The notes below the pieces were generated by a model. That model did not search any database and was not told the DNA's origin. It worked only from the letters and a program-made list of their open reading frames with translations. From contig DATKAO010000244.1 in NCBI GenBank assembly GCA_035498015.1, positions 1 to 35,436 of the forward strand: a DNA stretch of 35,436 bases, given 5' to 3'. Shown piece by piece: positions 27,737-33,113 of the stretch. Positions within the stretch are counted from its first letter, which is position 1. Each line of letters starts with the position of its first letter. A program made the translations under genes and the position numbers. Source of the DNA: Myxococcota bacterium. Lineage in GTDB: Bacteria > Myxococcota_A > UBA9160 > SZUA-336.

Positions 27737-28840
27737 TCAGGCGGCCACGGGAGTGTCCGGCGCGGGCCCCACGTAGCGCGACGCGGGCCGGATGAGCCGC
27801 CCGCCGCGCGCCTGCTCGTCGACGTGCGCGAGCCAGCCCGCGACGCGCGCCACCGCGAAGGTGGGCGAGAACAGCTCCTGCGGCAGCCCGATCGCGTCGA
27901 GGATCACCGCCGTGTAGAACTCGACGTTGGCCGCGAGCCGGCGCTCCGGGCGGCGCTCGCCCAGCGACGCGACCGCGACCGCCTCTACGGCGCGCGCCAG
28001 GTCGAGCCGGTCGCTGCGCAGACCGCCCGTGCGCAGCCGCTCCACCGCGCGCTCGAGCACCGCCGCACGCGGGTCGCGCACGCGGTACACGCGGTGGCCC
28101 ATGCCCATGATGCGCCGGCCCGCCGCGAGCTCGTCGGCGATCCAGCCCGCCGCGCGGCCGGGCGTGCCGATCGCGTCGAGCATGGCCAGCACCGGCCCGG
28201 GCGCGCCCCCGTGCCTGGGGCCCTTCAACGCGCCCAGCGCCGCCACCACGGCCGACACCGGGTCCGACTCCGTCGACGCCACCACGCGCGCGGTGAAGGT
28301 CGAGGCGTTCATGCCGTGATCGGCGGCGGTCACGAGATAGGCGTCGAGCGCCTGGCTGCGCGCGGGATCAGTGCCGTGTGCGCTGGCCATGCGCAGGTAG
28401 TCGGCAGCGTGCGAGAGGCTCGGGTCGGGCGCGAGCGCCGGGACGCCGCGGCGCTTGCGCGCCCAGGCCGCCGCGAACACCGCCACCGCGGCCGTGAGCT
28501 CGACGTGCAGCTCCGCCGGGTCGATCGCGCTGGCGCGCAGGTGCGCGAGCGCCGCGCGCAGACACTCCATGCCGTCGGCCCCCTCGAGTGAGTCGCCCAG
28601 GTGGGGCAAGCGGCCGAACGCGCGCACGCGCGCGCGCCCCAGGCTGGCCCGCAGCGCCGCGTGCTCCGCCGGCGCCGGCAGCGCTCCGTGCCAGAGCAGC
28701 GCGCACACCGCCTCGAAGTCGTTGGCGAGCGCGAGCGCTTCCACGTCGTGCCCGCGAATCACCAGCCGCCCGAGCTCGCCGTCCACGTCGCTGAGCTGGG
28801 TGTCGGCTACCACCACGCCTTCCAGACCGTCCGAGGTCAT
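27737..28840 (-). CDS. Citrate synthase / 2-methylcitrate synthase
   Basis: A 367-residue type-II citrate synthase fold. Residues seen are the oxaloacetate-binding His175 (TAADHGMNAST), catalytic His210 (GPRHGG), His249 (GMGHRVYRVRDPR) and, at the position of the third catalytic residue, Glu307 (NVEFYTA) instead of the usual Asp. It condenses acetyl-CoA or propionyl-CoA with oxaloacetate; the sequence does not decide between the two. It is somewhat shorter than classical GltA because the N-terminal domain is trimmed. ATG 28840 has AGGAGA upstream. It is divergent from a second citrate synthase fused to a DNA-binding domain, with a palindromic operator-like site between them. Confidence 0.88.
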   Translation of the reverse strand: MTSDGLEGVVVADTQLSDVDGELGRLVIRGHDVEALALANDFEAVCALLWHGALPAPAEHAALRASLGRARVRAFGRLPHLGDSLEGADGMECLRAALAHLRASAIDPAELHVELTAAVAVFAAAWARKRRGVPALAPDPSLSHAADYLRMASAHGTDPARSQALDAYLVTAADHGMNASTFTARVVASTESDPVSAVVAALGALKGPRHGGAPGPVLAMLDAIGTPGRAAGWIADELAAGRRIMGMGHRVYRVRDPRAAVLERAVERLRTGGLRSDRLDLARAVEAVAVASLGERRPERRLAANVEFYTAVILDAIGLPQELFSPTFAVARVAGWLAHVDEQARGGRLIRPASRYVGPAPDTPVAA

Positions 28841-28887
28841 CGCTTTTCTCCTGGTTGTTGGCTCTTACGTTGCCGCTTCCGCTGGAC

Positions 28888-28905
28888 TTGATCAACGTTG
28901 ATCAA
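28888..28905. promoter_or_regulatory. Perfect 18-bp palindromic operator between divergent citrate synthases
   Basis: TTGATCAACGTTGATCAA is an exact palindrome made of two copies of the octamer TTGATCAA, itself palindromic, whose starts are 10 bp apart. A further TCAATCAAG follows to 28914. This AT-rich site stands out in GC-rich DNA and lies in the 84-base gap between the two starts. If the left octamer serves as the -35 (TTGATC, 28888-28893), AGATAT at 28913-28918 is 19 bases away, the long spacing typical of MerR-controlled promoters. The N-terminal HTH of the adjacent fusion is the natural candidate ligand. Confidence 0.7.
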
Positions 28906-28924
28906 TCAATCAAGATATCGTTCC

Positions 28925-30139
28925 ATGAAGCGGGACGACCGGATGAGCTCGCGCGAGGCGGCGGACTTCCTCGGGATCAAGCTCGAGACCCTGTACGCGT
29001 ACGCGAGCCGGGGGCTGGTGGCGGGCGCGCGCGCGGCGGGCGAGCGCGGGCGGCGGTACACACGCGCCGATCTCGAAGGGCTGCGCGCGCGCGCCGCCGG
29101 GCCCGCGGCCTCGGCGCTGCGCTTCGGCGAGCCGGTGCTCGACACGCGCATCACGCGCTTGACTCCCGAGGGTCCGGAGTACCGGGGCCGGCCCGCGGTC
29201 GAGCTGGCGCGCGCGGGTACGCCGTTCGCCGCGGTCGCCGAGCTGCTGTGGACCGGCGCCCTGCCGGAGCGCCGCCCGCACTGGCCGGAAGGCCCCGCGC
29301 TCCCGGCGCGCGAGCTGGCGCGGCTCGTGCCGCGCGACGCGTCGCCGCTGGCCGCGCTGGCGCTCGCGCTGCCGGCGCTGGCCGCCGCCGACCCGCTGCG
29401 CTTCGACGCGCGCCCCGAAGCCGTGTGCGAGCGGGCGCGGCGGCTGATTCCGCGCCTGGCGGCCTCGCTCGCGCTGGCGCTCGATCCGGGGCGCGTGCCG
29501 GCGGCGCTGGCCGCGACCGATCCCACGCGCGCGCTCGCCGCTGCGCTCGGCGTGCCGGCGCGCGGCAAGTCACTCGCGCTGCTCGAGACCGCGCTCGTGC
29601 TCCTGGCCGACCACGAGCTGAACGCCTCGACCTTCGCGGCGCGCGTGGCGGCGTCGACCGGCGCCGACCTGTACGCGTGTCTCTCGGCCGGGGTCGCCGC
29701 GCTGTCCGGCCCGCTGCATGGCGGCGCCAGCGAGCAGGTCGAGATGCTCGTGCGCGAGGCGGGCGATCCGGCAGGCGCGGCCGCCGCCGTGCGCGACCGC
29801 ATGCGGCGCGGCGAGTTACTGCCGGGCTTCGGCCACCCGCTCTACCCCGACGGCGACCCGCGCCACCCGCCGCTGTTCGCGGCCGCGCTGGCCCTCGCCC
29901 CCCGCAGCCCGCGCGTGCGCACGATCGCGGCGATCGTGGCGGCCATGGAGGCCGCGGGCCGGGCCCGGCCCAACGTCGACACCTCGCTGGCCGCAGCCTG
30001 CGCCGCGCTCGACCTGCCCCAGGGCCTGGGCGGCGCCCTGTTTGCGATCGGCCGGTCAGCCGGCTGGGTGGCCCACGTGCTCGAGCAGAGTGAGACGAAG
30101 GCCGTTCTGCGCCCGCGCGCCCGCTTCATCTCCGATTGA
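28925..30139 (+). CDS. Citrate synthase fused to an N-terminal MerR/excisionase-type HTH
   Basis: A 404-residue protein (from ATG 28925). Residues 7-55 form a helix-turn-helix (SSREAADFLGIKLETLYAYA, then RRYTRADLEGL, as in MerR/HTH_17 domains). The rest is a citrate synthase fold with His230 (LADHELNAST), His265 (GPLHGG), His304 (GFGHPLYPDGDPR) and Asp352 (RPNVDTSLA), so the catalytic triad is retained even though the usual FYS after Asp is TSL. It may be an active enzyme, a regulator sensing citrate-synthase substrates, or both. A TTG at 28898 also opens the frame but lies inside the palindrome; ATG 28943 is another choice. No good Shine-Dalgarno is visible. Confidence 0.87.
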   Translation: MKRDDRMSSREAADFLGIKLETLYAYASRGLVAGARAAGERGRRYTRADLEGLRARAAGPAASALRFGEPVLDTRITRLTPEGPEYRGRPAVELARAGTPFAAVAELLWTGALPERRPHWPEGPALPARELARLVPRDASPLAALALALPALAAADPLRFDARPEAVCERARRLIPRLAASLALALDPGRVPAALAATDPTRALAAALGVPARGKSLALLETALVLLADHELNASTFAARVAASTGADLYACLSAGVAALSGPLHGGASEQVEMLVREAGDPAGAAAAVRDRMRRGELLPGFGHPLYPDGDPRHPPLFAAALALAPRSPRVRTIAAIVAAMEAAGRARPNVDTSLAAACAALDLPQGLGGALFAIGRSAGWVAHVLEQSETKAVLRPRARFISD

Positions 30140-30217: not shown

Positions 30218-31612
<1,395 letters not shown>

Positions 31613-31997: not shown

Positions 31998-33113
31998 ATG
32001 AGCGCCGGCAGCCGCGTCCTGGTCGTCGACGACACTCCGCGCAACGCGAAGCTCCTGGCCGACCTGCTGGCCGCCAACGGCTTCCAGGTTGCGACCGCGA
32101 GCTCCGGCGCCGAGGCGCTCGAGTCACTCGCCAAGGAGCCCGCCGACCTGGTGCTGCTCGACGTGGTCATGCCCGGTCTCTCCGGCTACGACGTGTGCCG
32201 CGAGGTGCGCAAACGCGAGCACGGCGGCTACCTGCCGATCATCCTGGTCACCGCGCTCGACCCCGAAGAGGAGCGCATGCGCGGGCTCGAAGCCGGCGCC
32301 GACGACTTCCTGACCAAGCCGGTGAACCTGGGCGAGGTGCTGGGCCGCGTGCGCTCGCTCCTGCGCATCCGCACGCTGCACGAGACGGTGCGCGCGCAGG
32401 CGCAGGAGCTCGCGGACTGGAACCGCGAGCTCGAGGGGCGCGTGCGCGAGCAGGTGGCGGAGCTGGAGCGACTCACCCGCCTGAAGCGCTTCCTCGCGCC
32501 GCAGGTGGCCGAGGCGATCGCCGCCGGCGGGCTCGAGATCCTGCGCCCGCACCGCCGGCGAGTCACCGTGGTGTTCCTCGACCTGCGCGGCTTCACGGCC
32601 TTCGCCGAGTCGTCCGAGCCGGAAGAGGTGATGGAGCTCTTGCGCGAGTACCACGCGCACATGGGCCGGCTCGTGGTCGCGCACCAGGGCACGCTCGAGC
32701 GCTTCACCGGCGACGGAATGATGGTGTTCTTCAACGACCCGATCGAGCTCGCCGACCCCGAGCTCGAAGCCGTCACCATGGCGCTCGAGATGCGCGCCGC
32801 CGCGGCCCGGCTGTCCGAGTCGTGGCGCCGGCGCGGCCACGCGCTCGAGCTCGGCATGGGCATCACGCACGGCTACGCGACGCTGGGCGCGATCGGCTTC
32901 GACGAGCGCCAGGACTACGCCGCGATCGGCAGGGTCACGAACCAGGCCGCCCGCCTGTGCGAGGCCGCCGCGGCCGGCCAGATCCTGATCTCCGAGCGCC
33001 TGCGCGCAGAGATCGAGTCACGCATCGACACCGAGCCCGTAGGCGAGCTGGCCCTGAAGGGCTTCCACCGGCCGGTCCCGGCGCACAACGTGCTGCAGCT
33101 CCGCGCTCGATGA
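31998..33113 (+). CDS. Response regulator with class III nucleotidyl cyclase output
   Basis: A 371-residue protein. Residues 1-120 are a receiver (VVDDTP, phospho-acceptor Asp55 in LLDVVMPG, Lys108 in TKPV). A helical linker (about 130-165) leads to a class III adenylyl/guanylyl cyclase domain. Metal ligands are Asp195 (FLDLRGF) and Asp239 (TGDGMMVFF); transition-state residues Asn315 and Arg319 lie in RVTNQAARL. At base-selecting positions, the usual Lys is Arg235 and the usual Asp/Thr is Ala308, so nucleotide specificity is unclear. It should make cAMP or cGMP when its receiver is phosphorylated by the upstream kinase. The stop overlaps the next ATG (ATGA). Confidence 0.9.
   Translation: MSAGSRVLVVDDTPRNAKLLADLLAANGFQVATASSGAEALESLAKEPADLVLLDVVMPGLSGYDVCREVRKREHGGYLPIILVTALDPEEERMRGLEAGADDFLTKPVNLGEVLGRVRSLLRIRTLHETVRAQAQELADWNRELEGRVREQVAELERLTRLKRFLAPQVAEAIAAGGLEILRPHRRRVTVVFLDLRGFTAFAESSEPEEVMELLREYHAHMGRLVVAHQGTLERFTGDGMMVFFNDPIELADPELEAVTMALEMRAAAARLSESWRRRGHALELGMGITHGYATLGAIGFDERQDYAAIGRVTNQAARLCEAAAAGQILISERLRAEIESRIDTEPVGELALKGFHRPVPAHNVLQLRAR

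Follow-up and report, generated by a model that had tools for sequence, protein, structure and literature searches.

A citrate synthase fused to a helix-turn-helix domain, with a conserved operator-like element at its start, as a probable transcription regulator

Two citrate synthase genes lie back to back in a 35,436-nucleotide stretch of DNA from a member of the Myxococcota (contig DATKAO010000244.1; hereafter the window), and one of them begins with a DNA-binding domain. This arrangement raises the question of whether the fused protein is an enzyme, a regulator or both, and what it might control. An earlier sequence-only reading had seen in the pair a possible self-regulating enzyme switch. 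Having compared the locus with its relatives, we consider it likely that the fusion is a one-component transcription regulator, with a MerR-like helix-turn-helix (HTH) seated on a conserved element in the gap and a citrate-synthase domain serving as metabolite sensor, which would regulate its own gene together with the divergent one.

The fusion gene (28925-30139, plus strand) encodes 404 residues and has the two domains that the sequence-only reading had assigned to it. Residues 7-54 match HTH_17 (28.3 bits, cut-off 27) and MerR_1 (24.1 bits, cut-off 21.6) of Pfam, both scores barely exceeding the cut-offs; the winged HTH itself covers residues 7-51 (28943-29077, plus strand) and includes a recognition helix region, TLYAYASRG, and a wing with Tyr45. 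Residues 68-398 (29126-30118, plus strand) form a complete citrate-synthase domain (PF00285, 229.6 bits, cut-off 27). It bears the expected triad, His265 (GPLHGG), His304 (GFGH) and Asp352 (PNVD), while His230, Arg313, Arg377 and Arg396 align with the oxaloacetate ligands H229, R314, R387 and R407 of E. coli GltA. This full set of seven catalytic and oxaloacetate-binding residues is likewise found in 67 of 67 paired fusions, so that catalysis by the fusion could still occur. No NCBIfam synthase model, however, reached its cut-off on the window fusion (best score 190.5 vs 421.3). Beside the active-site His, the protein reads GHPLYP at the GHRVYK positions. The equivalents of GltA Arg306 and Lys309 are both Pro in most fusions, whereas every partner has Arg at the first and Arg or Lys at the second, which suggests that the fusions may bind CoA more weakly or differently. 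An AlphaFold model (mean pLDDT 91.3) confidently resolves two domains: a winged HTH with helix-helix-strand-strand topology and, following helices 47-57 and 60-64 and a flexible, low-confidence linker (63-68), a citrate-synthase body. The best PDB matches of the model are methylcitrate and citrate synthases. Strict membership of the MerR family was considered and rejected, as the model lacks the long antiparallel coiled-coil dimerisation helix after the HTH. Current annotations call such genes 'citrate synthase family protein', 'citrate synthase' or 'citrate/2-methylcitrate synthase'. The genes that directly follow the fusion in the window encode a sensor histidine kinase, a receiver and a receiver-adenylate/guanylate-cyclase protein, in that order (30218-31612 and 31998-33113).

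The divergent partner (27737-28840, minus strand), which the sequence-only reading had also called a citrate synthase, is a full-length type-II enzyme of 367 residues (PF00285, 349 bits; NCBIfam NF009005, 387 bits, above the cut-off of 332). It is of a Glu type: Glu307 (codon 27920-27922, minus strand), in the motif NVEF, aligns with the catalytic Asp362 of E. coli GltA, and this replacement, with the remaining site intact, is seen in 65 of 65 readable partners. Among solved structures, the nearest is that of the related B. subtilis CitA (PDB 2c6x, 40% identity), which also has Glu within NVEF. Since the source genome encodes two further citrate synthases, on contigs C16 and C256, the pair in the window is probably an accessory system. 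A survey that started from the partner and covered 91 genomes of the class yielded 22 loci with a readable Glu-type synthase, 21 of them beside a divergent fusion and the last one running off the end of its contig. Two truncated synthase genes in this survey also have a divergent fusion, and none of the six Asp-type synthases has one.

Scanning one genome per species, we found at least 520 relatives of the fusion. The loci of the best 80 of these were fetched and come from Myxococcota, Burkholderiales, Rhizobiales, Bosea, Bradyrhizobium, Caulobacterales and others. Adding the window itself and twelve relatives from whole genomes brings the set to 93 fusion loci. In 66 of these (one a duplicate), a citrate synthase gene diverges from the fusion at a distance of no more than about 200 bases. 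When 108 citrate-synthase domains were placed in a maximum-likelihood tree, the fusions fell into one group (support 100) and the partners into another (support 99), parted by long branches; the fusion is thus a single widespread clade, occurring in Alpha- and Betaproteobacteria, Myxococcota and others. Pairwise distances among fusions and among their partners are closely correlated (r=0.88 for 40 pairs; permutation maximum 0.20), indicating that the two genes travel together. Among the matches listed, the closest copies of the window pair are in two Ideonella MAGs (L035 and L036; fusion 70%, partner 76% identity), betaproteobacterial bins that are closer to it than genomes of the window's own family, by transfer or by misbinning.

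The gap between the two genes contains the palindrome TTGATCAACGTTGATCAA (28888-28905). The sequence-only reading had singled out a TTGATCAA palindrome there, which is indeed present and conserved, but the conserved element proved to be longer, with three half-sites: ATCAA (28891-28895), TTGAT (28898-28902) and a further ATCAA (28909-28913). From conservation and pattern searches, we predict an operator at 28888-28913 that consists of the palindrome plus the third half-site (ATCAA-CG-TTGAT-N6-ATCAA), the consensus common to the gaps being ATCAA-N2-TTGAT-N5..8-ATCAA, adjoining the fusion start. Scored as matches over 15 fixed positions, the element reaches at least 13 in 64 of the 65 distinct divergent pairs and 12 in the other, against a background of four among 7,998 window-strands from other parts of these loci. 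Conservation of the divergent pair and its gap element in relatives, which had been proposed as a check, is therefore borne out, and we rejected the view that pair or element arose by chance or annotation artefact. All 30 Caulobacter loci, with fusions 67-100% identical to the query, score 13-14. The 27 unpaired fusions are more varied, with scores of at least 13 in 12 cases, 11-12 in nine and 10 or less in six; the nine intermediate ones mostly represent a Myxococcaceae variant, CTCAATCTCGATTCGACCATC. In the partnerless Myxococcaceae fusions (L037, L038, L041, L043-L046 and L067), this diverged element reads CTCAATCTCGATTCGACCATC(A/C/G)A, and nearly all of them have the full catalytic set. 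The end of the element is a median 17.5 bases from the start of the matched fusion protein, and the median distance between the element and the partner start is 70 bases. On the protein side, Tyr24, Tyr26, Ser28, Arg29 and Gly30 of the recognition helix and Tyr45 of the wing are invariant in 98 of 98 fusions, and the element is likewise almost invariant.

With 3 mismatches allowed, the element matches once in the window and in none of 100 shuffles, and its exact form occurs a single time in the 4.52 Mb source genome. Searching 20 other genomes or records (about 124 Mb) with the pattern RTCAA-N2-TTGAT-N5..8-ATCAA gave 19 matches, compared to none for the reversed-pattern control, and 18 of the 19 are located directly upstream of an HTH-citrate-synthase (HTH-CS) gene; the five searched genomes lacking an exact match have known variants that differ by one or few bases. 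Three previously unrecognised second HTH-CS paralogues from Chelatococcus and Paraburkholderia were found only via the element. One (L136) faces a luciferase-like monooxygenase gene and appears to retain neither the second His nor the Asp, another (L144) faces a CoA-transferase III gene, and the third (L143) resembles L144, its divergent gene also being present in L233. The sole match away from an HTH-CS gene, in Paraburkholderia (L149, about 1500-1525), has a spacer of 5 and is situated between LysR-like and epimerase-like genes. As in autogenous regulators, a conserved operator-like element thus sits at the fusion start and is found almost only at HTH-CS genes. The suggestion that the fusion acts as a DNA-binding regulator at the gap is strongly supported at the sequence level by the element, its linkage and its conservation.

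The genes opposite the fusion differ considerably between lineages. Without a partner synthase, fusion and element face an iron-sulfur oxygenase ferredoxin in Massilia, a TPP enzyme in an aromatic-degradation neighbourhood in Caballeronia, cupin and HpaI-type aldolase genes in Paraburkholderia, a CoA-transferase III in Ewingella and a DUF2332 gene in Pseudoroseomonas. From 120 Burkholderiaceae genomes, 23 fusion loci were recovered, 20 of them with an element score of at least 13. Those fusions with intact catalytic residues are opposite CoA-transferase III in all five cases examined, and five degenerate ones are opposite MFS transporters (three), a cupin gene and a 2Fe-2S/cupin gene. Because the element is kept opposite unrelated genes, it travels with the HTH-CS gene and not with the neighbour. 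For the same reason, and given its absence upstream of Asp-type synthases, we rejected the element as a property of the partner synthase. The earlier proposal that the fusion controls the citrate synthase pair agrees with the element in the gap, but is too narrow for the group, in which related predicted regulators are divergent from genes for CoA-transferase, transporters and oxygenases. In the tree, the catalytically altered Burkholderiales fusions cluster as a nested group (support 100), in which, using GltA numbering, His264 is replaced by Thr, Val, Leu or Ile and Asp362 by Glu or Ala, while the oxaloacetate-binding Arg314, Arg387 and Arg407 are kept in nearly all members (L058 has Gln for Arg387). 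Two unpaired fusions outside this group, L017 and L067, also depart from the full catalytic set.

A member of the family has very probably been studied before. In Caulobacter crescentus, the adjacent genes citB and citC (CCNA_03757/03758) were both regarded as citrate synthase paralogues; an E. coli strain lacking gltA was complemented by CitB but not by CitC (PMC7083601). The reported identities are 37% to B. subtilis CitA and 30% to GltA for CitB, and 32% and 33%, respectively, for CitC (PMC7083601). These values match those that we obtained for the C. hibisci partner (37.1% and 29.5%) and fusion (33.0% and 31.5%), and matching the figures in this way makes it a strong inference that CitB and CitC are orthologues of partner and fusion. 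The fusion is present in 37 of 41 genomes drawn from the genus Caulobacter. The text of the CitB/CitC paper makes no mention of a helix-turn-helix (PMC7083601), and in the open literature we found neither a citrate-synthase sensor/HTH fusion with its own operator nor work on M. tuberculosis CitA. In Cupriavidus metallidurans, five 'citrate synthases' are distributed over both replicons (PMC2864759), and some of them may be HTH-CS regulators.

From these sequence patterns, we infer how DNA binding, ligand sensing, domain closure and repression could be connected. The MerR-like winged HTH would bind ATCAA-N2-TTGAT-N5..8-ATCAA as a dimer held together by the citrate-synthase fold, which would give the fusion its two-fold symmetry in addition to acting as metabolite sensor. 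Given that the carboxylate-binding arginines outlast the catalytic residues, the sensed ligand is most likely oxaloacetate or a dicarboxylate resembling it, alone or together with an acyl-CoA, though another ligand is possible. The proposal of the sequence-only reading that the fusion binds oxaloacetate, an acyl-CoA or citrate, and that flux thereby sets expression, is a hypothesis at present. Ligand binding would close the citrate-synthase domain and thereby alter the seating of the two HTHs on the DNA. With the element at the fusion's own start, the simplest reading is that the fusion represses itself and simultaneously controls the divergent gene, in the window the Glu-type accessory citrate synthase. 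No sigma-70 consensus promoter, within whose 19-20 bp spacer MerR operators lie, was recognised in the window gap, which makes repression a guess from position.

Other readings of the locus must be weighed against this one. Were the element the site of another regulator, the HTH of the fusion would do something else. This is scarcely credible: while the pairing of fusion and element is itself deduced from sequence, 18 of the 19 genome-wide copies are at HTH-CS genes, also where the neighbour differs. Citrate synthases function only as dimers, whose subunits share active sites, and the two genes of the pair are co-inherited, so that the fusion might alternatively dimerise with the partner synthase, with DNA binding governed by how much of that enzyme is present or by whether it is liganded. 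We regard such a heteromer as very unlikely, because many genomes keep fusion and element without a partner synthase opposite, and long branches separate the two proteins.

Less easily dismissed, but in our view still unlikely, is that the fusion works as a citrate or 2-methylcitrate synthase and, when short of substrate, additionally represses its own locus, comparable to PutA and proline use. The complete active sites of the paired fusions, together with eight Burkholderiaceae fusions of the HHHRDRR type and the match of the fold to methylcitrate synthases, would fit this idea. It is at odds with the failure of CitC, the apparent orthologue, to replace GltA where CitB succeeded (PMC7083601), although this negative result can also reflect poor expression. 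In addition, the basic pair at Arg306/Lys309 is lost in most fusions and kept in all partners, one subclade is catalytically degenerate, and the window fusion falls below the cut-off of every NCBIfam synthase model. For the complementation result, the missing Arg/Lys pair and the degenerate subclade, the notion of an enzyme switch is doubtful, and we retain a ligand-responsive regulator as the preferred reading.

Regulators with enzyme-derived sensor domains are already known, among them MocR, ROK and trigger enzymes. MocR/GabR proteins are one-component regulators that join a GntR-type HTH to an aminotransferase fold and are often divergent from the gene they control. The fusion resembles them in using a whole enzyme fold as sensor domain, with the substrate pocket kept and a divergent target, but differs in both HTH family and enzyme fold. 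In B. subtilis, citR and citA are divergent, and CitR is a LysR-type regulator lacking a citrate-synthase domain. The window likewise pairs an accessory Glu-type synthase with a divergent, predicted dedicated regulator, which, unlike CitR, has a MerR-type HTH and a citrate-synthase domain. With MerR and HspR, the fusion shares an N-terminal winged HTH, and its inverted TTGAT...ATCAA half-sites recall the HAIR element of HspR; however, a citrate-synthase domain takes the place of the coiled-coil helix, and the HspR model scores 21.5 vs a cut-off of 105. PutA, BirA and NadR are trigger enzymes, that is, proven enzymes with a DNA-binding domain and autoregulation. The fusion similarly links a DNA-binding domain to a metabolic-enzyme domain and is predicted to be autoregulated, but its catalysis is only putative, and a CitC-type protein failed in complementation (PMC7083601).

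On balance, though with less assurance than for the window fusion itself, we favour the view that these proteins are a large unrecognised transcription-factor family annotated as citrate synthases. Their fold would sense oxaloacetate-like acids and acyl-CoA, one shared operator would serve an accessory synthase, CoA-transferases or aromatic-acid uptake and breakdown, and one branch would have become a pure sensor after catalytic loss. Regulators that sense central carbon through a citrate-synthase fold were not found described in the open literature, and yet the family occurs in well-studied genera such as Caulobacter, Bradyrhizobium, Agrobacterium and Paraburkholderia, where it inflates citrate synthase counts. 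Having one common operator makes regulon and ligand directly testable. The regulator reading would also account for Caulobacter CitC not being a functional synthase, and the series from catalytic to sensor proteins inside one clade would clearly illustrate how an enzyme turns into a receptor.
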